64,000 nucleotides of DNA from Granulicella sp. (GTDB lineage: Bacteria > Acidobacteriota > Terriglobia > Terriglobales > Acidobacteriaceae), in the NCBI GenBank assembly GCA_027452215.1, contig DAIDGQ010000039.1:62001-126000 (forward strand), given 5' to 3'. Position 1 is the stretch's first letter; each line of letters opens with the position of its first letter. The notes below the pieces were generated by a model that saw only the letters and a list, made by a program, of their open reading frames with translations, was not told the origin of the DNA and searched no databases. The position numbers and the translations under genes are program-made. Below, piece by piece: positions 16,143 through 30,612 of the stretch.

Positions 16143-17573
16143 TTACTGAAGGCCCACCGCTGCAAGTTGCTTCGGGTCCGCCTCGTCCGTAGCTAACAAG
16201 TTGTGGCATGTCGAGCAATCGTTCGTGATGCTCTTACCGGTCTTGTCGTTGTGGTTGCCATCGTGGCAACGAAAGCATCCCGGATAATCATTGTGCCCTA
16301 TGTTGTTGGGATGTGTGCCCCACGTGACCTTCATGAAGGGGAAGACGTTATTGCTGTAGATAGCGACGATAGCCTTTGCGGCCTGATCAATTTCAGCGCG
16401 TTGACCTGTCCAGACCGCGGGATATTGAGTGCGGTAGAAGGTCTCGAGTGCCGAAGGGATACGCACGGCTGCATCTTGCCGCGAACTATAGTCCGCCTTG
16501 ATGAGGGCAAGACCTTCCTTATGGACGAAGGGCAGCGAGCGACTTGGGCGTCCCTGTGCCATATCCTTATTCAAGGCCTCTTCGGGCGTGAGAAAAGAAT
16601 GAGCAGCGCGGTTGTGGCAGTCAATGCAGTTCATGAGATGCTTTTCGCCAGTGATGGGACCCTTCGTATCCGAGGACACGAACTCGGTGACGGATCCGTC
16701 GGGGTTCGTCTTCCCTACCCACGGAATGGTCTGGTGATTTGAGTCCGTGGCTACATACTCGATGTGACCCAGATGTGCACCGTGAATTCCACTCAGATTG
16801 CCAAAGGAATCACGTCCTCCGACGTGAACCATGGCCATCGTGTAAGTCATGGAGTTCTTTTCGTCGTCACCATAGGATGTCTTTACCAGCAGCTTGTCCC
16901 CGATATTTCGCTCGGCATTATGACAGCTCAGACAAGTCACCTGAGCTGACGGAATTTTATCTCCGGCCATGATCGGTTCAGGGTAACGATGAAACATCAC
17001 CATGAGAAGCTGTTTGGTTCCATTCACCTTCGCATGAACAAATCCCTGGACTCCGGGCGCTATGTGGCAGGAAGTGCATGGCACATCCGCATGCGACGAG
17101 AGGTGATAGGCAGTGAACTCAGGTGACATGACATGGCAGGACTGACCGCAGAAGGACGGCGTATCCATATAGGCGACGCCGCGATAGGACGCGGTGCCGA
17201 CGATGACAAAATTGATGAATGTTGCCACGATGACGAAGTTAACTCCGTGGCGAAACGCGGGCTCAGCAAAATCTATTGCAGGATAGATGGATGGAATCTG
17301 GCCGGCAGCACTCAGTTGACGCTGGCGAAGCCACATGCCGAGAGGAATAAGAAGCAGACCCAGAACAAAAATGCCGGGGAGCACAAGATCGAAAATAATG
17401 CCCAGGTAAGGATTGGATGAGCCGCCATGCCCAAGAAAATCCACCACCCAGAAGCCAACTAAAACAAGGGCGGATGCACTTGTGAGTGCACCGCCGATGA
17501 GGCTGATCGTGTTGTTCCCATAAAAGAGAAATGGTCTAAGCCAATTCTTCTTGAATTGTTCCAGGTCTGCCAT
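16143..17573 (-). CDS. NapC/NirT-type membrane-anchored multiheme cytochrome c (hexaheme)
   Basis: N-terminal TM helices, then FCGQSCHVM (CX3CH) plus five CXXCH motifs (CTSCH, CLSCH, CIDCH, CFRCH, CSTCH). Confidence 0.85.
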   Translation of the reverse strand: MADLEQFKKNWLRPFLFYGNNTISLIGGALTSASALVLVGFWVVDFLGHGGSSNPYLGIIFDLVLPGIFVLGLLLIPLGMWLRQRQLSAAGQIPSIYPAIDFAEPAFRHGVNFVIVATFINFVIVGTASYRGVAYMDTPSFCGQSCHVMSPEFTAYHLSSHADVPCTSCHIAPGVQGFVHAKVNGTKQLLMVMFHRYPEPIMAGDKIPSAQVTCLSCHNAERNIGDKLLVKTSYGDDEKNSMTYTMAMVHVGGRDSFGNLSGIHGAHLGHIEYVATDSNHQTIPWVGKTNPDGSVTEFVSSDTKGPITGEKHLMNCIDCHNRAAHSFLTPEEALNKDMAQGRPSRSLPFVHKEGLALIKADYSSRQDAAVRIPSALETFYRTQYPAVWTGQRAEIDQAAKAIVAIYSNNVFPFMKVTWGTHPNNIGHNDYPGCFRCHDGNHNDKTGKSITNDCSTCHNLLATDEADPKQLAAVGLQ

Positions 17574-17579
17574 GGGTTC

Positions 17580-17906
17580 CTACTTCTTCTCTAGTGTGCG
17601 GATGTAGGCGACTACGTCCTTGATCTGACTATCCGACAGCTTGCCTGCATAGGCGGGCATTTTGCCCTTACCACTTTTCGTAGCTGCAATAAGATCAGCA
17701 TCCGACTCCTTGACAATCGCCGGAGAGGTGAGCGGCATTGCCTTCATTGCCTTTCCGGCGGGAGTGGATCCCGAACCATCAGCGGCATGGCACATCTGAC
17801 ACTTAGCTTTATAGGTATCCGCTCCAGAGTTCTGAGCAGCTGCCGTTAGAGTGGAAGCTGCCATGATGGCAACCAGTGTAATTCCGAATTGAGATCTTAC
17901 TGTCAT
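17580..17906 (-). CDS. Periplasmic class I monoheme cytochrome c
   Basis: Signal peptide, KCQMCHAADGSG heme site, distal Met in GKMPAYAGKLSDSQIKDVVAYIRTL. Confidence 0.92.
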   Translation of the reverse strand: MTVRSQFGITLVAIMAASTLTAAAQNSGADTYKAKCQMCHAADGSGSTPAGKAMKAMPLTSPAIVKESDADLIAATKSGKGKMPAYAGKLSDSQIKDVVAYIRTLEKK

Positions 17907-17950: not shown

Positions 17951-20599
17951 TTAGAACTCATAGTGCATGGAGAGCGTGAGGAGATTTGCATGAAAGTTCC
18001 TCGGTGCAGAAAGCCCAGATGACGGTTCGGTTAGACCGGTTGGACCAACCAAGGTGGATGAATTGCAAGGGACGACCGTTGCTGGGGTTGAGGGGGTCGG
18101 ATTGGTCGTGCTGCAGTACGGAGCGCCGGAGGGACCACCTTCGCCGTAGCCGTAGTAGTTGTACTCCGCCTTCCAGATCCATCCCGGGTGAACCGTCCAT
18201 GCAATGTTCACATAGGGCGACTGATACGCAGATTGCAGAGAACCGTTGACTGCCTGCGCGCTGTTGAAGAACTGGTTGCCGCTCACCGAACTGATGCGAT
18301 ATCCAAGGCCGCCATGTAGCGAGTTGACCGGAGTCAGCAGGAGACCGACGGATGCGTACTGCGTGGGAGCATCCATGAAGTCTGCCACTGGGCCGTACTC
18401 GTAGTAGGACGTTCCACGGACGGTTGCTCCAGGACATGCTGTACCACTGGCCGTGGCTGCTCCGGGCAGAGCGCTGGTCGCTGCTGCGTCGTAGCAAATG
18501 TTGGTCGACGTGTATACATCCGAGTAGGAGTAGTTGAGGTCGAGCGCAAAGTGCTCGTTCGGCGTGAGCACCACGCCCATGCTGGCTACGCGGCTGTGAT
18601 CGACATGATTGATGGGGCCAATCGCAACGCTCGCAGGGGTGGGAGCGCCGACACCGGTATATACGGTTGGAGTTGAGGAGGGCAGAGACTGATTCCAGTT
18701 GCCGGAGTTGTTGGTATTGTTATGCCGTTCCCTGTCATTGAAGGCAGCGGAGATAGAGGCCCAGGACTTCGGCCTGTAAAGCGTGTGGAACCTGTAGTGC
18801 TGCGTCTGCCGTGGGTCGATCGGTGTCAGCACGTTGTTGTCGTAGATCGCTTCGACCGTCCCGTTGACGTCCCAGTGCGGGGTGGGGCGAAGTGCGACAT
18901 TGAGGATTCCCCCGTTTTCAAAGATCGTCCAATTAGCATTTGCTGGATCCGTGGAGATTGCACTTCCTTGAACGATGGTGTCGGTGCTGTAACGATAGGT
19001 GAGCGAGAACGTGGCGCGAGACGATGCGTCCCAGGTTGTGGTCAGGTCATTGGTCACGATCTTTTGGCCAAAGTAGCCATACGATAGAACACCGTTGCTG
19101 ATGCCCGGGTAAGTTACTGGTCCCGACGTCAGATTGCCGGGGTAGTTGATCGTAAAGGGACCTCCGGAGGGTATGCTGTGTTTGATTCCGGCAACGTTGG
19201 TACTGCCCGGTTCGTGAACGTTTGAGAAATACACTTGATCCGCGAAGCTCAATTTGTCGAGTGCCTGCCAGGTGATGCCCAACTCGGCACCGACATCGTG
19301 TCGCCTTGCGGTGGACCATCCGGTAAATGTGTTTGTGCGCATCGCCGAGGCAGGCGCCGTCTTGGTGGCTGCTGTGTAATACAGACCAGTCCAGGTTTCG
19401 TTGTAGTTGGGGAGATTCGTATTTGCTTCCGTGTAGCGGAAGCTTCCGTTGACTGCAATGTTCCTGATGCTCGAACTCTGAAAGCGGAATATCTCGGTGG
19501 GATAGAGGCTGCGTGTCGGAAGATGGCGCGCATAGGTGGCATTTACGTCGCATGCAGGGTCGATCACGGGAAGACCAATCGTCCCGGCGGCCGCAGTGAG
19601 TGCTACTCCGGGAGTGGCAATGCTGGGACTGCAGAGGGCTGCTGTGTAAGGAGAGGTGCTGTCATATCCTCCAAGTGAGACCGGTGTACCGTTCGCTTCC
19701 TGCACATTCAATGTGCCGGGTGCGAGCGTAAAGTAGGTATTTTCCTTGTAGTGGACGACCTCCTCTTCAAAGGTGAACTTCGTCTGTTGGAGTGGCTTCC
19801 AATCGACAGCTCCAATGAAATCGTCGGTGCTATTGCGCACGTTTTCTTGCAGCAACATGCTCTCGGCAACGATCGGGTCACCGCCAGGGCTTAGCGCCGG
19901 ACCCTGGAAGATGTTCTGTGAGTAAGCCACACGGAAGGTCACTTTTGCGAGCGGAAAGATCGTTAGGTTGGTGTCCGTCATTCTTCGCACGGTATTGAAC
20001 TTGAACGGCGAATCGTTCATCTGCGGCCATGCATATGAGCCCAGAGCACCGGCGGGTCCGATCGGGATAGACTGCCCTCCCGGGATCAGGGCGTTGCCTA
20101 AGAGGTCATAGTCAAAGTACTGGCGGTCGCGGCGGAACGTTCCAGAGAACTCATACAGCTTGCCCTTGGAAAAATCCATCTTGGCGAAGTTGTTCGGGTC
20201 ACCTCCAAAGCCGGAAGTAAACGCCGTCAGGTAGTCCAGCAGGGGATGCTTGGTACCCGGGACAGCACGCATCGTATACGTCTGGCCGAGGACACGCGGT
20301 CCGGACTGGATGTTCACGAGGGTGTCGTACATATTTCTGCTGCCAAAGACTCCGGCGACATGTCCACCAAGGTCCACAGACTGATGAATCACATAGCCCT
20401 CCTGGATCACCGGCGTTGTTTGCACCGTATTCGCAGGAGCGCCGGATGCGAGGGTTTGACCCTGAAGACCCGCGACACCCGTCATCAGTAACATTATGGC
20501 GATCCCAATCCCGGCTGCGGCCCGATGGGTCGTCTTCGATGCCAGGAGTTCATTTGGTAGCCGAGAAAACCAGTCAGTCTTCTTCATCTCAAGCCTCAT
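17951..20599 (-). CDS. Large outer-membrane beta-barrel, candidate MtrB/PioB-like porin of a porin-cytochrome complex
   Basis: 882 aa; signal peptide, alternating amphipathic strands (TFRVAYSQN, SFRYTEAN, ATFSLTYRYS, FALDLNYSYSDV), C-terminal aromatic residue (LLTLSMHYEF). It is sandwiched between cytochrome genes. Confidence 0.7.
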   Translation of the reverse strand: MRLEMKKTDWFSRLPNELLASKTTHRAAAGIGIAIMLLMTGVAGLQGQTLASGAPANTVQTTPVIQEGYVIHQSVDLGGHVAGVFGSRNMYDTLVNIQSGPRVLGQTYTMRAVPGTKHPLLDYLTAFTSGFGGDPNNFAKMDFSKGKLYEFSGTFRRDRQYFDYDLLGNALIPGGQSIPIGPAGALGSYAWPQMNDSPFKFNTVRRMTDTNLTIFPLAKVTFRVAYSQNIFQGPALSPGGDPIVAESMLLQENVRNSTDDFIGAVDWKPLQQTKFTFEEEVVHYKENTYFTLAPGTLNVQEANGTPVSLGGYDSTSPYTAALCSPSIATPGVALTAAAGTIGLPVIDPACDVNATYARHLPTRSLYPTEIFRFQSSSIRNIAVNGSFRYTEANTNLPNYNETWTGLYYTAATKTAPASAMRTNTFTGWSTARRHDVGAELGITWQALDKLSFADQVYFSNVHEPGSTNVAGIKHSIPSGGPFTINYPGNLTSGPVTYPGISNGVLSYGYFGQKIVTNDLTTTWDASSRATFSLTYRYSTDTIVQGSAISTDPANANWTIFENGGILNVALRPTPHWDVNGTVEAIYDNNVLTPIDPRQTQHYRFHTLYRPKSWASISAAFNDRERHNNTNNSGNWNQSLPSSTPTVYTGVGAPTPASVAIGPINHVDHSRVASMGVVLTPNEHFALDLNYSYSDVYTSTNICYDAAATSALPGAATASGTACPGATVRGTSYYEYGPVADFMDAPTQYASVGLLLTPVNSLHGGLGYRISSVSGNQFFNSAQAVNGSLQSAYQSPYVNIAWTVHPGWIWKAEYNYYGYGEGGPSGAPYCSTTNPTPSTPATVVPCNSSTLVGPTGLTEPSSGLSAPRNFHANLLTLSMHYEF

Positions 20600-20706
20600 T
20601 TGCAGTAAAGCGTGTTAGCAGTGAGCCCATATAGGTGGGCATAACCGTTGTGCAGGAAATCGACCGAGCCGCCCGATGCTGGCAAAACGGCACAGTCTCG
20701 GAACCG

Positions 20707-21630
20707 CTACCTCTTGAAATAGGGATCAATGTTGGACCCGTGAATCATGGTGTGGCAGCTGGTGCAGGGTGTGATCGCTGACGATCCCGGGCCCTGCCCA
20801 TGGATATTGTCGGCACCCACTGGGCTATGGCACTGATTGCACAAAGCATTGATATTTGGCACATTCAGCAATCGCGCATTCTGAGAGCCATGCGGGGTGT
20901 GGCACGCGACGCAACCCTCTGCCCTGACGGGAGGATGCTCATACACGAACGGACCACGCGTCTCCGAGTGGCACTTGGTGCAGATTGCATTCTGATCTGC
21001 GGTGGCCTTCAGATTGTTCGGAAGAAACGTACCATGCGTGTCATGACAATCGCTGCATTTGACCAGGCCCTCGTTCACCCTGTGGTGAAACGGCATGTCG
21101 AATGAGGGCTTGACGTCCGTGTGACAGGTGAAGCAAAGCGTTGGCTGCTTGGCGATCAGCAGCGCCGTATCGGGAGCAGCTTTGTGCACGCTGTGGCAAC
21201 TAAGGCAGCTAACGCCCGCCCTGGCATGAGGAGAGCGAAGAAAGTTGGGATGAGTGTTCGCGTGGCAGCCCAGGCAAGTCGCATCAACTTCTTTTGGCGA
21301 TAGCTTGCTGATGCGTGTGATCTTGGTGATGTCTCCACCGGACTCCACGTGCGCTTTACCGGCGCCATGGCAACTTTCGCAGGTGGCACCGGTTCCGCCA
21401 TGTTGCAAGGCCAGTTTGGAATGAGGATTATCGACCATTCCTTTCGCCTGCGCGTCATGGCAAGTCGCGCATGCATCATTTCCCACAAAATCGGAGGGGT
21501 TTGATACGGCCTTTGTTGTCGAATGCTGAAGGGTCTGTGCGGGTAGCATGCGAGTTCCACATGTGGTCAGTACCCCGGCCATTGCTACCAGAAGGAAACG
21601 CGTCGTAATTCTGCGGGCCAAATGCCACAT
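20707..21630 (-). CDS. Decaheme c-type cytochrome, MtrA/DmsE-like
   Basis: Ten CXXCH motifs counted (CATCH, CESCH, CLGCH, CLSCH, CFTCH, CSDCH, CTKCH, CVACH, CNQCH, CTSCH) in about 307 aa with a signal peptide. Confidence 0.9.
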   Translation of the reverse strand: MWHLARRITTRFLLVAMAGVLTTCGTRMLPAQTLQHSTTKAVSNPSDFVGNDACATCHDAQAKGMVDNPHSKLALQHGGTGATCESCHGAGKAHVESGGDITKITRISKLSPKEVDATCLGCHANTHPNFLRSPHARAGVSCLSCHSVHKAAPDTALLIAKQPTLCFTCHTDVKPSFDMPFHHRVNEGLVKCSDCHDTHGTFLPNNLKATADQNAICTKCHSETRGPFVYEHPPVRAEGCVACHTPHGSQNARLLNVPNINALCNQCHSPVGADNIHGQGPGSSAITPCTSCHTMIHGSNIDPYFKR

Positions 21631-21734
21631 AAAGGAACACCTCTATCAGCGGAGTTGGTTTATATAAATGTGTTGCTTATCTATTCGCCAAACCGTCTAT
21701 GTGAGCAACGATAGGCGTGGAAAGACGGGGTATC

Positions 21735-21750
21735 TGTGACACTCATCACG
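21735..21750. promoter_or_regulatory. Candidate Crp/Fnr-family site A (TGTGAC-ACTC-ATCACG)
   Basis: Left half perfect, right half degenerate; centre about 112 bp upstream of the decaheme gene start. Confidence 0.45.
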
Positions 21751-21887
21751 AAAAGGCAAAAAACATGACAGAACGTTTAGAGAATGGACACTTGTTCAAC
21801 TATCCATATGATTCTGTGATCCTTAGGTCATTCCATGAGCGAACAACATAGACCGATAAACGTCTTATTTGAGCGATTATCGCTTCT

Positions 21888-21903
21888 TGTGACTACAGTC
21901 ACA
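21888..21903. promoter_or_regulatory. Candidate Crp/Fnr-family site B (TGTGAC-TACA-GTCACA)
   Basis: Perfect 6-4-6 palindrome in the intergenic region upstream of the cytochrome operon. Confidence 0.65.
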
Positions 21904-22091
21904 GCTTTTTGTTGAATTAGCGGTTTCAATGATGAGCGTAGTGATTCTGGATTCAACAATCCTGAACAGTGCTGCTTTGTCGGGGTCGTGGGATTCAATC
22001 TCTTTCCGGGGGAGATCCATCAGGACAGGACGATTCCCGTCTTACTTTTTCTCAGGAGCAAGGATTGAGCTCCTCCGCAACAGACAAAATG

Positions 22092-22119
22092 GCCCGGACA
22101 CCTTGAGGTCAATCCGGGC
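22092..22119 (-). terminator. Putative terminator for the 42-aa ORF
   Basis: GCCCGGA...TCCGGGC stem; on the minus strand it is followed by CATTTTG, downstream of the small ORF stop. Confidence 0.5.
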
Positions 22120-22151
22120 AGGAGCTACAAGAGTCGAAGAGAGCGTGGCTG

Positions 22152-22280
22152 TTATTTAGGAAGCTGGGCGGAGGCAATAGTCGTGGCTAAATTCGCCAGG
22201 AACAAGATCATGAACGCAACGAGGATCACCACCACACCACCGACGGTCATCCGTTCCCAAAAGTCTGCTCTCTCTCGCAT
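22152..22280 (-). CDS. 42-aa single-transmembrane small protein
   Basis: Translation MRERADFWERMTVGGVVVILVAFMILFLANLATTIASAQLPK*; SD-like AAGGAGAG just upstream on the minus strand; one strong TM helix; absent from the supplied ORF track. Confidence 0.7.
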   Translation of the reverse strand: MRERADFWERMTVGGVVVILVAFMILFLANLATTIASAQLPK

Positions 22281-22350
22281 GTTGCTCTCCTTGTTTGGTG
22301 ATGCCCGTATGACCCACTCCCCCAACTCTACAGCCGGTGCTGTAGTTTGC

Positions 22351-22366
22351 AGTGACCACGGTCACA
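22351..22366. promoter_or_regulatory. Candidate Crp/Fnr-family site C (AGTGAC-CACG-GTCACA)
   Basis: Near-perfect palindrome between the divergent 42-aa ORF and the Crp/Fnr regulator. Confidence 0.6.
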
Positions 22367-22462
22367 CCCCGGTTTTTCCGCGCGATTATGCGCCTGAATT
22401 ACGTGTTTATTCTTTGAAATTCCCATCGCCTCATCATTTTGTTTTCCAAGAGAGCAGGTCCC

Positions 22463-23176
22463 ATGCAACATCTACAGCCACACGCGACCACTTGCTGTAA
22501 GGCCTGCACCGATCGTTCGATGCGGATACTGTGCGATCTTTCCGGACAGGCGCGGATCGACTTCGAGTCGCTGGGGATGCAGATGCGGCTACCCAAGAGA
22601 TCCATCATCTTTCAGGAGGACGACAGCTGCGACGCAGCAACCATCATTTGTGAGGGACAGGTCAAGCTCTCTTGCACCTCCCGCGAAGGAAAAACGCACA
22701 TCCTGAAGATCGCGCTCCCAGGAGATCTGCTTGGGTTGGGTGCAGCGATCTCGGGAACTCGGTTCGAGGTCACGGCAGAGACCATCGAACCTGCCGTCGT
22801 GAAGAAGATTCGACGGCATGAACTGTTGGCCTTTCTCGAGAAGTATGGGCAAGCGAGTATGCTCGCAGCGAAGGCGTTGTCTGAGGAGTACAAGTCAGCA
22901 TTCTTTGATGCGCGACGCCTGGCCTTATCGGAGTCCACCGCAGGAAGGTTGGCCGGCGTGTTGCTCGAATGGGGTCGTGCTGCGGTAGGCTGTAGCGGGG
23001 CTGATATGAGCTTCACCATGGCGCTGACCCACGAAGAGCTTGCGAATCTTGCGGGGACCTCTCGCGAGACCGTCACGCGAGCGCTGGGAAAATTCCAGCG
23101 CGATGGACTCATCGAGATCCAAGGCTCAACCTTTCGAGTGCTGTCCCCCAGCGGCCTGGAAAATCTTTCTTCCTGA
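22463..23176 (+). CDS. Crp/Fnr family transcriptional regulator with N-terminal cysteine cluster
   Basis: cNMP-binding fold, C-terminal HTH with LTHEELANLAGTSRETVTRALGKFQRDGLIEI; N-terminal TTCCKACTDRSMRILCDLSG. ATG at 22439 is also possible. Confidence 0.92.
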   Translation: MQHLQPHATTCCKACTDRSMRILCDLSGQARIDFESLGMQMRLPKRSIIFQEDDSCDAATIICEGQVKLSCTSREGKTHILKIALPGDLLGLGAAISGTRFEVTAETIEPAVVKKIRRHELLAFLEKYGQASMLAAKALSEEYKSAFFDARRLALSESTAGRLAGVLLEWGRAAVGCSGADMSFTMALTHEELANLAGTSRETVTRALGKFQRDGLIEIQGSTFRVLSPSGLENLSS

Positions 23177-23298
23177 CACTGCCCCGCGCAGGCTAGCCCA
23201 AGTCGCTCGCAGATAGCGCGCCAGGCTCCGACTCGTGTGCCACCAAGTGCGGTTCGTCACGGCAATAACCTGTCATATGTTCAATAGAGCACATACCC

Positions 23299-23314
23299 TG
23301 TGACGGCTATCACT
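23299..23314. promoter_or_regulatory. Candidate Crp/Fnr-family site D (TGTGAC-GGCT-ATCACT)
   Basis: Left half perfect, right half 4/6; upstream of the UspA gene. Confidence 0.45.
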
Positions 23315-23462
23315 GATACCTGACGCTAAACCAAATTGAATCAAACACAAGAAGTAGCGTAATTTTCGAGCGTGGCCATGGGGTCGTCAGGACTAATTGG
23401 CGTTCCACTAAAACATCGCATTCTTCACGAGCTGAACGCCAAGAGAAAGGGGGAGATGAGAG

Positions 23463-24416
23463 ATGAATACGATAAAACGAAGCGTCCAATCGCCCTTCAA
23501 GAAGGTACTCCTTGCGACCGATTTCTCCGTGAGTTTGGAGGGATCATTCAAGGCGGCGCTGCGTCTTTGCCAGATGAATGAGTCGACACTCCAAATACTG
23601 CACGTTCTGAGGGCGGACGCCGTGGCTGAGGCGGCGACGGGCTTGCAACTGGGCACTGGCCTGCTTGACAGTGAAGCCCTTCTACTCCTGAATCAACTCT
23701 GCACGCGAGCCAAGGAAGCCGGTGTTGACTGCAGGTCGAGCATTGAAACAGGGGTCGCTTCCGCAAAGATTCTGGAGGCGATCGAAGCCAACGACATCGA
23801 TCTGGCGATCCTTGGAACGAGCGAGCCGCGCGGATCGAAGCGGCTGGTCTTCGGCCCCACGGCTGAGGCGGTGATGCGCATCGCTCCCTGCCCCATGATG
23901 ACGATTGGCCCTGTCGCAGCTGACCTCATCAAGAAGAATGCGTCGAAGGGCCCCGTCGTCTTTGCGACTGATTTTCATTCGCTAACCAGAGAAGCGATTC
24001 GCCTTGCTGTCTCTTATTGCGAGAGTACGGGGCTGCGGCTGCATTGCCTCCATGTTCTGCCCAGGGCCTTGCAGTCGACCGACGGGGACCAGACGCTTTC
24101 TGCGATTTTGACCTCGGCGCTGAGGCATCTCGCCGCAACCTGCGCCGTCGACGCTGAGTTGCCAGTCTGCCGAGTTACCTATGGGAGTGAGATTTCGAAT
24201 GCCATCGTGGACTATGCCCGGGAACAGCAAGCGAGCCTCATCTTCCTGGGAGTCCGCCGCTCGAGTATGGTGGCTGCCGACGAGCCTCTGCCCATCGCGT
24301 TTCGTATCATCACAGAAGCCCCCTGCCCTGTGGTGACTCTCGTCTGCGATGCTCACGCTGAGCCGGTCTGCCCGCCTGCGATGAAGCCAGACTCATCCCC
24401 CTTCCATGTGCAGTAA
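23463..24416 (+). CDS. Tandem universal stress protein (two UspA domains)
   Basis: Two UspA repeats: KKVLLATDFSVSLEGSFKAAL...DLAILGTSEPRGSKRLVFGPTAEAVMRIAPCPMMTI and GPVVFATDFHSLTREAIRLA...LIFLGVRRSS...ITEAPCPVVTL. SD-like GGGGGAGATGAGAG upstream. Confidence 0.93.
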   Translation: MNTIKRSVQSPFKKVLLATDFSVSLEGSFKAALRLCQMNESTLQILHVLRADAVAEAATGLQLGTGLLDSEALLLLNQLCTRAKEAGVDCRSSIETGVASAKILEAIEANDIDLAILGTSEPRGSKRLVFGPTAEAVMRIAPCPMMTIGPVAADLIKKNASKGPVVFATDFHSLTREAIRLAVSYCESTGLRLHCLHVLPRALQSTDGDQTLSAILTSALRHLAATCAVDAELPVCRVTYGSEISNAIVDYAREQQASLIFLGVRRSSMVAADEPLPIAFRIITEAPCPVVTLVCDAHAEPVCPPAMKPDSSPFHVQ

Positions 24417-24490
24417 GTGTCCTTCACACGCGTCCGGGCCCCCTTTAACAACTCTTCGTCATGGCAGGGATAGGATTCTTAAGCCCAATG

Positions 24491-24529
24491 CAGGGCGAGT
24501 GCCTCTCACAGGGAGAGGCACTCGCCCTG
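24491..24529. terminator. Bidirectional terminator hairpin between convergent genes
   Basis: Perfect 17-bp stem CAGGGCGAGTGCCTCTC / GAGAGGCACTCGCCCTG with 5-nt loop. Confidence 0.8.
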
Positions 24530-24547
24530 TTATGCAATCCATGCGGC

Positions 24548-25699
24548 TCACACCGCAGCCACAGCCGGTTCGTAATGGCAGAACGGATCGCTGGCCAGCG
24601 GATCACCGGTCGCGGCAAACGCTCGTGCGCGTGAGCCTCCGCAGAGAGCCCGGTATTCACAGCGCCCACATTTTCCCTTGAAGAGATTGGGATTGTGCAG
24701 CGCCTTGAACATCGGAGCATTGCGATACACGTCGAGCAACTGGTCGTGCCGAACGTTGCCCATCGCGAGAGGAAGAAAACCGGCAGGGCAGATGTCTCCC
24801 TGATTGGAGATGAACATGATGCCGTGCCCGTCGCGAATGCCGAAGCCGCGATACACAGGCGTACGCTCGATCTCGGCGGCGACCATCCCTGTCTCGCGCA
24901 TACGGCTTAGCGCAACACGGCGATAGGACGGGGCTTCGGTGGTTGCGACCGCAAACGGAGCCGTCTTCGAGAGGTCGTAGATCCAATTCATCAATTGCTC
25001 TCCCCGCTCGGTGGAGATGGGCTGAAGCACTCTGCCGCGACCCACTTCAATCAGAAAGAACAAGCTCCAGCGCATGACGGGAAACTCTCGCGTAAGCAGT
25101 TCGTAAACCGCCGGAAGATCATCCACCGTCTCCGCGGAGACCAGCGTGTTGATCTGGATTGGCACGCCCAGAGTGGCGGCAGCTTTAGCCGCGGCAATTG
25201 TCCAGTCGAAGCAGCCCTCCACGCCGCGGACAGCTTCGTGGCGTGCGGCCGTCGAGCCATCCAGGCTCAGCCCGAAGCTATCGATGCCATGCGCCTTCAG
25301 CTTCGCAAGCACCTCGATCGTCAGGTCTGCCGTGGCGCTCGGGGTGATTGAAACATTGATGCCGAGAGCGCGGGCCTCATCGATCAAGTCAAACAAATCT
25401 ACGCGCCGCAGAGGATCGCCACCGGTAAAAACCAGGTGGGGGGTAGGTTTGTCGAAGGCCGCGATCTGATGGAGAAGCTTCTTCCCTTCCTCATACGTCA
25501 GCTCGTCCGGATGAGCCGTTGAGACCGCCTCCGCGCGACAGTGACGGCAGGCCAAACCGCAGGCCTGCGTCATCTCCCAATAGACCAGCATCGGGTTACT
25601 GGAATAATCGTGGCTGGCAGAGTGATGTGGATGAGTTGAGGCGCGATGGCCCATTGCGGGAGCGGTCGTGGGAATCGTTCGTATATCCGTGGAAGACAT
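24548..25699 (-). CDS. Radical SAM/SPASM domain protein (NirJ/AhbD-like class)
   Basis: CX3CX2C motif CGLACRHC; C-terminal Cys-rich SPASM-like ICPAGFLPLAMGN...CGRCEYRALCGGSRARAFAATGDPLASDPFC; next to hemY. Confidence 0.82.
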   Translation of the reverse strand: MSSTDIRTIPTTAPAMGHRASTHPHHSASHDYSSNPMLVYWEMTQACGLACRHCRAEAVSTAHPDELTYEEGKKLLHQIAAFDKPTPHLVFTGGDPLRRVDLFDLIDEARALGINVSITPSATADLTIEVLAKLKAHGIDSFGLSLDGSTAARHEAVRGVEGCFDWTIAAAKAAATLGVPIQINTLVSAETVDDLPAVYELLTREFPVMRWSLFFLIEVGRGRVLQPISTERGEQLMNWIYDLSKTAPFAVATTEAPSYRRVALSRMRETGMVAAEIERTPVYRGFGIRDGHGIMFISNQGDICPAGFLPLAMGNVRHDQLLDVYRNAPMFKALHNPNLFKGKCGRCEYRALCGGSRARAFAATGDPLASDPFCHYEPAVAAV

Positions 25700-25709
25700 G
25701 TTGATTCTC

Positions 25710-27173
25710 CTAAGATGCGGCAGGAATAGGTATGAGAGTTGGCTGATGGCGTAGATTGTTGGCCTTGTGTTGCAGCTTGTCGCGTTGTGTAAGTTTGAGC
25801 ACGGTATTCACGCTGCTCTGAATGCAGTCCGGAATTCCCGAGCCCCGGTAGGCGGCTCCTGCGAGATACAGGCCGGGATGCGAGTTCGCACCATCGTCAA
25901 TCTCCTCGAGCAACTTACTGTGCCCGACTTCATACTGCGGATTGGAGCGGCGCCAGGAATACGCCCGTGCCAGCACTGGCGTTGCGGTGATGCCCATGAT
26001 CTCACGCAATTCGTTCCTCGCAAGTGATACCAAAGAGGCCTCATCCTGCTCGGCAAGATTCTCCGCCAACGCTCCTCCGACGAAGACGCGCAGAAGCACG
26101 CAATCGTCCGGAGCGCGATGGTTGAACTTCGTCGAAGACCAGGAGCAGGCATTGATGCGGCGGCTTTCGCTCGCAGGAACGATAAAGCCAAAGCCATTCA
26201 GAGGGCAGGTCAATTCACTGCGTCGAAAGCCCAGCGAGACGGTAGCGGTAGAGACATACCGGATGGAGCGCAGCCTCTCCGCAAGGACAGGATCGAGTTC
26301 CTGAACGATCCCCGCCGTGACATACGCCGGCGTTGTGAACACCACATTGTCCGCAAGAATTGAGGAGCCATCGTCCAAGGCGATCCGGTATTGCGGACCC
26401 TCGGATGCGATGGATCGAACGCGGCAGTTGACTCTAATACGCTGTGGATCGAGGTGGCGAACCAGGGCATCGGGAAGCTGCTGCAGTCCTCCGGAAAGTG
26501 TCGTGAACATTGATGGCTGCTTACTCGCGGCCGGCTTCCCAGCCTGCGCCTTCCTGCGCCTCATCATGCCCAGCACTAAGCTGCCGTTGGCCTGCTCCAT
26601 GTCCGCAAACATCGGGAACGTGCTGCGAAGACTTAGTCGTTCCGGATCGCCCGCGTGGATGCCCGCCATCAGGGGGCCAGCAATCTTTTCCAGAAGCTCC
26701 GACCCTAGGCGTCTGCGAACAAAGCCCGCAAGGCTTTCGTCGATACCCTTCGGCGCGCGCCGAACGAAGACCTCCAGGCCCATGCGTAGCTTCGCCGGCC
26801 AGGAGATCAGCTTGGAGCGAAGGATGGGAAGGATCATCGTCGGAGCCATCAGCATCATGCCTTCGGGCATGGGGTGCAGACGACCATTGCTATACACATA
26901 CGTGGAGGGAGTCGCCGTGGAGTTGGAGCCCATCAGCTGATCGCCAAGTCCCAGAGTGCGGCAGAGATCCAGTGTCGCACTCTTCTGCGTTAGAAACGAG
27001 TCAGGGCCGCCCTCCACAAGGAACCCATCACCCGCATCCGAAGTGATCTTGCCACCGAGACGAGGGGAGCTCTCGAGCAACAGAAAGTCCGCACACTCGC
27101 CTGCGGTTTGCTGCAGCGAGTAGGCTGCCGCAAGTCCCGAGATTCCTCCGCCAATGATTACCGTTTTCGTCAT
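25710..27173 (-). CDS. hemY: Protoporphyrinogen/coproporphyrinogen oxidase (HemY/HemG FAD type)
   Basis: N-terminal FAD-binding MTKTVIIGGGISGLAAAYSLQQ, LGGKITSDAGDGFLVEGGPDSFLTQK, MAGIHAGDPERLSLRSTFP, C-terminal GLYLAGAAYRGSGIPDCIQSS. Confidence 0.93.
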   Translation of the reverse strand: MTKTVIIGGGISGLAAAYSLQQTAGECADFLLLESSPRLGGKITSDAGDGFLVEGGPDSFLTQKSATLDLCRTLGLGDQLMGSNSTATPSTYVYSNGRLHPMPEGMMLMAPTMILPILRSKLISWPAKLRMGLEVFVRRAPKGIDESLAGFVRRRLGSELLEKIAGPLMAGIHAGDPERLSLRSTFPMFADMEQANGSLVLGMMRRRKAQAGKPAASKQPSMFTTLSGGLQQLPDALVRHLDPQRIRVNCRVRSIASEGPQYRIALDDGSSILADNVVFTTPAYVTAGIVQELDPVLAERLRSIRYVSTATVSLGFRRSELTCPLNGFGFIVPASESRRINACSWSSTKFNHRAPDDCVLLRVFVGGALAENLAEQDEASLVSLARNELREIMGITATPVLARAYSWRRSNPQYEVGHSKLLEEIDDGANSHPGLYLAGAAYRGSGIPDCIQSSVNTVLKLTQRDKLQHKANNLRHQPTLIPIPAAS

Positions 27174-27207
27174 CTCCCCAAGGGTATCGGGGGATGGGCT
27201 TCGACAC

Positions 27208-27223
27208 TGTGACTGTAGTCACA
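27208..27223. promoter_or_regulatory. Candidate Crp/Fnr-family site E (TGTGAC-TGTA-GTCACA)
   Basis: Perfect 6-4-6 palindrome with its edge 35 bp upstream of the hemY ATG. It is the exact reverse complement of site B over all 16 bp. Confidence 0.65.
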
Positions 27224-27292
27224 GGAGCTGGCAGGCAGTGAGGTTTCCTTGAAGAATAAGCAGGAAACGCCATGCGTCATTCGGCTCGACGG

Positions 27293-28399
27293 CTACCAGA
27301 TGCCCTTATCACTGCCAGTGATTTTGTAGCCGATCGCAGCGGCCGTTGCGAGCGCAGGCAACAATCCAAGCCGCGCGCTGCTTTCCAACTCCCGCCTGCG
27401 AAGCAGGCCCGCGAACTGCGAGCGATAGAGCCTAACGGACTGCGGCAAAATCGGAACGCGAAGAAAGCCTCCTCCGAAGTGCATCACCGTTCCATCAAAT
27501 CTCGCCGCCTCCTTGACGACCGCCGGCAACGCCAGACCCGTCCCGCGGAAGCGTTGGACATAATCCGACACCAGCACGAGGTACGTCGCAACACCTTCCC
27601 AGATCCCGGCCGCCTCCGCCGACGACTTGAGATCGTCATAGTCAATCGCACCAGACTCGACCAACATCGCCGAATCGATGACGTCGCACAACCGGAAGTA
27701 GAAGTGCCGATACATGCGTTGCAGCGTCGAGATCATCAGGCGGTCAGAGACCGATGCCACGCGAAACGTCTGGCCGTCGAACTCCAGCACCCGGGCTCGC
27801 CCCGGCAGATTCGATGCAAGCACCAACTGCTCGCCCGTCTGGCCCAGCCGCCCCGCGTGTACCTCCACCGATTCCGGCAGTCCGGGGATGAGGAAGTTCC
27901 ACTTGGACGCAAGCCTGTCTCCCCAGCTTCGCGAGTCAAGCTGCGCCCCAAAACGCCTCTCCATCAGGGAACAAATGTCCTCTGACGAAGCATTGCTGTA
28001 CAGGTCGATATCGCTGCCGAAATCCGGCCAGTGGTCGAGTGATTTGATCACCGTAAGATCGAGCTTCTCTTCCTCGAAGGCGTCGCAGATGATGCGCAAA
28101 AAGGATGTAGCTTGATCAATCCGCGATCGCTCTTCAGCAATCGCGGTCGCTGCCCACTCGGCACGAAGCTCGTCCTGCGCAGCGACCATGATCTCGCAAT
28201 AGACCTCCATCGCACGCACCACAACGTGATTGCGGTGCGCGAGGGCAAGCAGTGCGCCGAACTCTTCCGCGGTCAGGCTTCGAAGCTCGGTCGCCAGCGA
28301 TGAGTGCCGCGCGACTGCGTCCTGCGAGAGCAGAAGTACAGAGAGCGTCGTCATCATCGCCTCATTCGAGACGGGTGAAATGGAGGGCGTGGCTGTCAT
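27293..28399 (-). CDS. Nucleotidyltransferase family protein (NTP_transf_5-like)
   Basis: DLTVIKSLDHWPDFGSDIDLYSNAS nucleotidyltransferase-like GSDID motif. Confidence 0.7.
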   Translation of the reverse strand: MTATPSISPVSNEAMMTTLSVLLLSQDAVARHSSLATELRSLTAEEFGALLALAHRNHVVVRAMEVYCEIMVAAQDELRAEWAATAIAEERSRIDQATSFLRIICDAFEEEKLDLTVIKSLDHWPDFGSDIDLYSNASSEDICSLMERRFGAQLDSRSWGDRLASKWNFLIPGLPESVEVHAGRLGQTGEQLVLASNLPGRARVLEFDGQTFRVASVSDRLMISTLQRMYRHFYFRLCDVIDSAMLVESGAIDYDDLKSSAEAAGIWEGVATYLVLVSDYVQRFRGTGLALPAVVKEAARFDGTVMHFGGGFLRVPILPQSVRLYRSQFAGLLRRRELESSARLGLLPALATAAAIGYKITGSDKGIW

Positions 28400-29733: not shown

Positions 29734-30612
29734 TTGCCGCCCAAGCATCACACATCTATGCTCTGCTTCGCTACAGCAATTTTGATCAGCACAGTAGCGA
29801 TCGCTCAAATGCCCTCCCAGGCTCCCTCGTCGGCCACCGCCCCGCATTCAGCGACCCAGACAACCCCTCGAGATCCCCTGCCCCCCTCGCCCGGGGGAAG
29901 GAGTACCGTCATGGGTGGCGAAATCCGCACGGTAGACCCAGTGCGGGACCAACTTATCCTGAAGGTCGCGGGAGGCCAGTCGATCAAGATCTATTTTGAC
30001 GAGCGAACCCAGGTGTATCGCAATGGCACAAAGATCGACGTGCTTGACCTGCATCCCAGCGATCACGCGTCCGTTGAGACGACTCTGGACGGCACTGCCC
30101 TCTTCGCGCTCAGAATTCATATGCTGTCGAAGGTACCCGGGGATGAACTGCGTGGCCGGATCGTGAGCTACAACTCCAGGAAAGACGAACTCATCCTCAT
30201 GGCGAACTCCTCCCATGAGCCACTCACCCTCCATCTTCCCCCAGATGCACCGGTCGCAACGATCGCGCAAGATGGCTCCTCAAAGCAACTGCAGGGGCCG
30301 GCCAGCTTCATTCCCGGCTCGGTCGTCGATGTGCGCTACACCGGAAGTAAAAGTGGTCGAGGCATCATCACTGGAGTTGATATCCTCGCAATTCCCGGCT
30401 CGACCTTCATCTTCAGCGGAACACTTTCCTCCATGGATCTGCACATCGGACGGCTGATCGTTCTCGATCCGCGTGATAACAAAACCTACCCCATCGAATT
30501 CCCTCCAACCCTGCTGCCGGTGATGCGAACACTCCATGCAGGATCGATCGTGAAGGTGGTCACACTCTTCGACGGCACCCGCTACGTGGCCAGCCAGATC
30601 ACAGCGCAATAG
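29734..30612 (+). CDS. Secreted protein, DUF5666-like OB/beta domains, function unknown
   Basis: Signal peptide; repeated GEIRTVDPVRDQLILKVAGGQSIKIYFDERTQVYRNG-type units. Confidence 0.6.
   Translation: MPPKHHTSMLCFATAILISTVAIAQMPSQAPSSATAPHSATQTTPRDPLPPSPGGRSTVMGGEIRTVDPVRDQLILKVAGGQSIKIYFDERTQVYRNGTKIDVLDLHPSDHASVETTLDGTALFALRIHMLSKVPGDELRGRIVSYNSRKDELILMANSSHEPLTLHLPPDAPVATIAQDGSSKQLQGPASFIPGSVVDVRYTGSKSGRGIITGVDILAIPGSTFIFSGTLSSMDLHIGRLIVLDPRDNKTYPIEFPPTLLPVMRTLHAGSIVKVVTLFDGTRYVASQITAQ

Follow-up and report, generated by a model that had tools for sequence, protein, structure and literature searches.

The window, i.e., the whole stretch of 64,000 nucleotides analyzed here, corresponds to positions 62001-126000 of contig C39 in a Granulicella-like metagenome-assembled genome (MAG; 2.53 Mb, 59% complete), and carries five palindromes upstream of cytochrome, heme and stress genes. 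These palindromes are very probably the operators of a Crp/Fnr regulon, in which a regulator encoded among them, with or without a paralog from elsewhere in the genome, would activate class II promoters in response to a low-oxygen or redox signal. The sites, their conservation, their genome-wide enrichment, the register of the accompanying -10 hexamers and the conservation of the regulator's recognition helix and cysteines were established directly. The closest relatives in the genome collection were Granulicella MAGs and Granulicella sp. L46, the latter also having the locus (L048), and these relatives place the source organism as an acidobacterium of the Granulicella group.

The sequence-only reading of this DNA had listed the five palindromes, and on re-check their coordinates and sequences were all correct, as were its statements that all five are intergenic and that the sites at 21888 and 27208 are exact reverse complements. 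Compared with the strict motif TGTGACN4GTCACA, these two sites are perfect, the site at 22351 has one mismatch and those at 21735 and 23299 have two; compared with TGTGAYN4RTCACA, the consensus derived from footprinting, the latter three differ at one position each. When up to two mismatches to the strict motif were allowed, the window alone yielded six matches against 2.03 expected, a number reached in one of 100 shuffles. The sixth match, at 30549, lies inside an open reading frame (ORF); it was rejected as coding and is probably due to chance. This excess is modest; the case for the palindromes rests on data from the rest of the genome and from relatives.

Scans of the whole genome, with the reversed motif as control, gave a clearer result. 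The strict motif with up to one mismatch was found at 12 places compared with 2 for the control, while the footprint-derived consensus gave 6 exact matches against none and 24 matches at up to one mismatch against 4. Five of these 24 sites fall within a single 5.5-kb part of the window (binomial p ~2e-9, in an after-the-fact test, as the cluster had already been noticed). Twenty-one of the 24 were read as intergenic, a count that is approximate as gene calls around the sites were made by ORF length and GC content at third codon positions, without a gene finder; the p value for this proportion assumes 13% intergenic DNA and is also approximate. Only three matches (C23:44399, C35:163278 and C45:146028) lie in convincing coding sequence, and the motif is thus not equally common inside and outside genes.

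Across 28 genomes of the genus, 137 exact matches to the consensus were counted compared with 5 for the control. These genomes also bear on whether the sites could be operators of the redox repressor Rex, whose operator in Staphylococcus aureus, TTGTGAAW4TTCACAA (PMC2883068), is a similar palindrome with the same spacing, and whose targets are likewise respiratory. Position 6 of the motif is C or T in all footprinted sites, and when it was changed to A or G only 10 matches were left in the 28 genomes. Additionally, the Rex DNA-binding domain PF06971 was not found in the organism's own 59%-complete assembly. A Rex regulon was rejected on these grounds and is considered very improbable.

Footprinting of the upstream regions in relatives showed that the sites recur at orthologous positions, in loci whose coding DNA is mostly 65-83% identical and whose spacers vary freely. 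The proximal decaheme site (21735-21750, minus strand; CGTGATGAGTGTCACA read towards the gene, approximately 105 bp from the ATG) is found at the same position in nine other Granulicella-type loci, and a site also precedes a decaheme operon in L078, from a genome that is more distant. The distal decaheme site (21888-21903, minus strand; TGTGACTGTAGTCACA, an exact consensus) is kept in eight of the nine, at 153-156 bp from the proximal site, and is degenerate in L044; across all loci the two operators are separated by 153-158 bp. Recurrence was observed in nine other loci for the operator between tm42 and the regulator gene (22351-22366, no strand assigned), where tm42 denotes a 42-amino-acid ORF, in seven for the operator of the universal stress protein (Usp) gene (23299-23314, plus strand), and in five for the hemY operator (27208-27223, minus strand; TGTGACTACAGTCACA read towards the gene); loci ending at contig ends account for part of the difference between these counts. 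L047, L070, L071 and L085 have other cytochromes in place of the adjacent decaheme and MtrB genes and still possess the sites. Beyond the closest relatives, sites upstream of decaheme operons were identified in L078, L115, L122 and L125.

The sites are accompanied by a conserved -10-like hexamer at one spacing from the operator, observed in four groups of promoters: the proximal decaheme site (TATCGT, TATGGT), tm42 (TAGAGT, TAAAGT), Usp (TTGAAT, TTCAAT) and hemY (TACCCT, TAACCT). Class II promoters have this spacing, with the operator centre at about -41.5. For the decaheme operon, the predicted hexamer TATCGT (21708-21713, minus strand) has class II spacing and points to a start near 21701; CTA(T/A)nnT is kept in the same register among the orthologs, and alignment A2 is invariant in columns 598-601 and 604-606. 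The predicted tm42 hexamer TAGAGT, with a TG upstream (22325-22330, minus strand), lies within 1 bp of class II spacing, and T(G/T)TA(G/A)AGT is present in all ten aligned loci. At Usp, the predicted TTGAAT (23336-23341, plus strand) has the exact class II spacing and ATT(G/C)AATCA is kept in eight of eight loci, and the predicted hemY hexamer TACCCT (27181-27186, minus strand) is kept as TAACCT or TACCCT in six loci, with a 1-bp shift in one.

The register was also scored over the genome as likeness to TATAAT at 54 offsets in 25 own-genome site-gene pairs, the register of interest being fixed by the known spacing. Offset 47, the class II register, ranked first of the 54 with a score of -2.58 against a mean of -6.47 (standard deviation 0.95), i.e., about four standard deviations above the mean, in a set that includes a few bidirectional sites counted both ways and the window promoters where the pattern was first seen. 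The peak of the -10-like hexamer at this register makes class II activation the most likely mode of action of the sites. The palindromes could instead be chance features of intergenic DNA, a suspicion raised by the departure of three of the five from the strict consensus and by the modest excess in the window; it is contradicted by the orthologous conservation with free spacers, by the excess of matches over the reversed control across the genome and by the occurrence of the -10 at one register, and we give it almost no credence.

The same analysis bears on individual promoters. At 22351 the conserved -10 is found on the tm42 side only, with none at the class II register facing the regulator in the aligned loci, and this site therefore most likely drives tm42. 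Control of the regulator over its own gene, as suggested earlier, is therefore no more than a possibility. The distal decaheme site lacks a -10 at the class II register. Beside it, at 21848-21888 on the minus strand, conserved CGAT-n-TCG-like and CG-n2-TAtCG blocks stand at another register; these might represent a binding site for a further factor or a separate promoter. The predicted start of hemY, at 27174, adjoins its ATG at 27173, and the hemY message is for that reason possibly leaderless in this species. As a separate observation, the region upstream of hemY (window 27160-27229; L045:12774-12919, L046, L047, L048 and L071) is about 70-90 bp longer in the relatives, which have a short ORF, MLTRSVTA-like in most of them, that overlaps the start of hemY.

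Outside the dense cluster in the window, the remaining sites are scattered over the genome. The regulon is genome-wide, and the earlier description of it as local was too narrow. The proposal that it spans the conduit, heme supply and stress genes is strongly supported by the enrichment, intergenic placement, conservation at orthologous positions and class II hexamers described above. The genes downstream of own-genome sites have mostly respiratory or heme functions and include POR and nuoA (divergent from a site at C37:85301), nuoJ, hemB, hemY, ccmF, fumC and cytochromes, together with genes for Usp, for a response regulator and for the paralogous Crp/Fnr regulator, and two for enzymes, a flavoprotein reductase and an aldehyde dehydrogenase. 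Amongst these, Pfam identified hemB, fumC, POR, nuoA, ccmF, three of the cytochromes and the flavoprotein, with ORF sequences as further evidence for POR. For the gene at C12:26718, Pfam gave a multiheme cytochrome only, and its ActA label comes from its place before an ActB-like gene. The nuoA and nuoJ sites are conserved in the relatives G217, G243 and G123. No hcp gene was noticed near the sites, and a genome-wide search for hcp was not made.

The regulator encoded in the window (22463-23176, plus strand, 237 amino acids) belongs to the Crp/Fnr superfamily, with its beta-roll and Crp-type helix-turn-helix domains above their Pfam cut-offs (PF00027, 59.4 bits against 27.5; PF13545, 70.6 against 27; PF00325, 42.1 against 21) and a predicted operator that is two-fold symmetric and located at promoters. 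Its recognition helix SRETVTRALGKF contains RETVTR and aligns with SRETVGRIL of CRP. In the Crp/Fnr family, residues R180 and E181 are correlated with half-site positions G3 and A6 (PMC1274295), in agreement with the TGTGA half-site observed here. The N-terminal C-x2-C-x8-C is invariant or nearly so in 37 aligned sequences, C63 is present in 36 of the 37 and C71 in 33, and the alignment shows no conservation of the cAMP pocket residues of CRP (E72, R82 and S83). Because the cysteine motif and the near-invariant C63 are conserved and the cAMP residues are lacking, the regulator likely senses redox or oxygen. The NCBIfam model for Fnr scored 50.9 bits against its cut-off of 228.

These features bear on a further explanation, namely that the sites are classical cAMP-CRP operators bound by a cAMP-responsive regulator, in which case the control would concern carbon and not redox. 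TGTGA-N6-TCACA is indeed the CRP consensus, and RETxxR is the CRP helix. The NCBIfam CRP model, however, gave only 45.7 bits against a cut-off of 266, the three cAMP residues are not conserved, the targets are respiratory, and the near-invariant CxxCx8C is absent from CRP. We thus regard a cAMP-CRP system as unlikely.

The identity of the binding protein is less simple, as the earlier assignment of the sites to the window regulator holds in that its RETVTR helix fits them but not in that it would be unique. The only other gene above the HTH_Crp_2 cut-off in the assembly, at C37:57818-58486 and here called PARA, encodes the same RETVTR helix and CxxCx8C and is itself preceded by a site, 71 bp before its start; it is clustered with a sigma-54 response regulator gene, a Usp gene and a pair encoding a histidine kinase and a response regulator. 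The two regulators probably share a DNA code, and because PARA has the same helix the binder may be either or both.

The sites could accordingly be mainly operators of PARA, with different or overlapping targets for the window regulator. Besides the features of PARA itself, this is favored by genome G036, in which a PARA-type regulator (58% identical to PARA) lies in a 50-kb island with nine of the genome's ten exact sites, one of them upstream of a decaheme-MtrB-cytochrome c operon. On the other hand, the densest own-genome sites adjoin the window regulator, and site number tracks its close ortholog: the median number of exact sites per genome is 9.5 with an ortholog of at least 82% identity, 3 with a relative of 50-67%, 1 with a paralog-type regulator only and 0 with none. 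A predominance of PARA is therefore a somewhat unlikely though serious possibility, and use of the sites by both regulators is as likely as use by either alone. A further correlate of the close ortholog is tm42: of the order's 298 genomes, eight have it, always divergent from the regulator gene, and these are precisely those with a regulator of at least 82% identity.

We infer binding, activation and signal from these data as follows. The regulator at 22463-23176, probably together with the C37 paralog, would bind TGTGAY-N4-RTCACA as a dimer, centred at most targets about 41.5 bp upstream of the start, with the -10 hexamer beginning 29.5 bp from the operator centre, and would activate in the class II manner. 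Targets would comprise the porin-cytochrome conduit, complex I, POR, hemB, hemY, ccmF, fumarase, soluble and multiheme cytochromes, Usp and regulators. The signal would most likely be low oxygen or a change in redox state or nitric oxide, with C12, C15, C24 and possibly C63 serving as sensor, either by means of an Fe-S cluster or as thiols. In Acidobacterium capsulatum, oxygen at 0.1 uM raises the expression of cydAB and several uspA genes, and that of a histidine kinase 84-fold (PMC11636273).

Several observations weigh against this account. Chance alone would account for about four of the 24 own-genome sites, and the genomes entering the site-count comparison are not phylogenetically independent. 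Some genomes without a relative of the regulator at E<=1e-30 still have up to five sites (G089), and G036 and G102, which lack a close ortholog but have a paralog-type regulator, have 6-10 sites, indicating that the window regulator is not the sole binder. The fourth cysteine of FNR, C122, is not conserved, the region being variable (A/C/T), and an Fe-S cluster is thus not assured. An AlphaFold2 model built from eight sequences was poor (mean pLDDT, predicted local distance difference test, 53) and was unused for cysteine geometry or fold search. Finally, parts of the nuo operon fall in A. capsulatum as oxygen drops (PMC11636273), so low oxygen need not activate all such targets.

In the window, the distal and proximal decaheme sites precede an operon on the minus strand that starts with a DmsE/MtrA-type decaheme cytochrome c (20707-21630; 10 CXXCH motifs; TIGR03508, 260 bits against a cut-off of 192). 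This is followed by an MtrB-like outer-membrane protein of 882 amino acids (17951-20599), named from its position and look, for which Pfam and NCBIfam searches gave no match, and the operon ends (16143-17906) with a cytochrome c (17580-17906) and a NapC/NirT-type multiheme cytochrome (16143-17573). The tm42 ORF (22154-22279, minus strand) has one apparent membrane segment. On the other side of the regulator gene lies the tandem universal stress protein (23463-24416, plus strand, 317 amino acids; PF00582, 113 bits over two stretches). The hemY-type protoporphyrinogen oxidase (25710-27173, minus strand; TIGR00562, 322 bits against a cut-off of 98) is directly followed by a radical SAM/SPASM protein (24548-25699, minus strand; TIGR04053, 460.6 bits against 395) that is similar to the heme enzymes AhbD and NirJ and whose position downstream of hemY is conserved. 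An Rfam search of 20600-27800 identified no known RNA.

In the relative G085, a site was found 35 bp before a cydA-like ORF and another upstream of a decaheme operon; its sites lie near Usp genes and a CxxCx8C regulator, with a histidine kinase gene after the regulator. Islands decorated with the motif and containing Usp, a Crp/Fnr regulator, a histidine kinase and a decaheme conduit were observed in G036 (L115-L117; C1:1403-1460 kb) and G085 (L130-L131), and are reminiscent of low-oxygen islands in other bacteria. In the relative G217 (L104, C158:11500-15500), hydrogenase control is suggested by a pair of exact sites, 55 bp apart, that lie between [NiFe]-hydrogenase-like ORFs; the locus looks partly misassembled. 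A contig labelled Rhodanobacteraceae (L049, CAJCHN010000050.1) encodes an acidobacterial-type regulator (56% identical) whose gene is preceded by an exact site, and is probably misbinned.

Acidobacteria are abundant in soils and withstand strong oxygen swings. We tentatively propose, with somewhat less than even confidence, that Acidobacteriaceae possess an uncharacterized Crp/Fnr clade, often represented by paralogs within one genome, in which an FNR-like redox sensor with unusual ligands (CxxCx8C and the beta-roll C63) is combined with a CRP-type DNA code, and that this clade serves as their master switch for low-oxygen respiration, including a conduit of the extracellular-electron-transfer type. 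The analysis yields a concrete operator and promoter architecture, along with two candidate regulators and a list of targets, all of them open to testing in cultured relatives. It links the porin-cytochrome conduit with core respiration and with heme supply, and could provide a regulatory explanation for the published low-oxygen transcriptomes of A. capsulatum.

The system is known in kind, as a Crp/Fnr class II regulon; there seems to be no earlier description of this particular regulon, of its combination of a CRP-type code and an FNR-like cysteine cluster or of the way it is linked to the conduit, and no report naming a Crp/Fnr regulon in Acidobacteriaceae was found in the open-licence literature. 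FNR and ANR are anaerobic regulators with respiratory, heme and Usp targets and class II operators, and the window regulator resembles them in its predicted targets and operators, in its Crp/Fnr domains and in an N-terminal cysteine cluster starting with CxxC. It differs from Escherichia coli FNR (Fe-S ligands C20-x2-C23-x5-C29 and C122) in having its third cysteine at x8, a near-invariant C63 and no conserved C122, and in pairing the helix RETVTR with the predicted operator TGTGAYN4RTCACA, where FNR pairs VETISR with TTGATN4ATCAA. With E. coli CRP it shares the RETxxR helix and the TGTGA-N6-TCACA operator, but it lacks E72, R82 and S83, has the N-terminal cysteine motif and has different targets. 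Bacillus subtilis Fnr, an Fe-S Fnr with a CRP-like operator, has C-terminal cysteines, unlike the N-terminal cluster here. The lxa locus of Burkholderia cenocepacia is a low-oxygen locus with Usp genes, comparable in gene content to the islands in G036, G085 and G088, whereas the set described here includes multiheme conduits and heme genes. HcpR of Desulfovibrio, also a Crp/Fnr member, has the operator wTGTGAnnnnnnTCACAw and R180/E181 (PMC1274295), but is without the FNR-type cysteine motif and is centred on hcp/frdX, whereas the window regulator combines a cysteine motif with a broad respiratory set.

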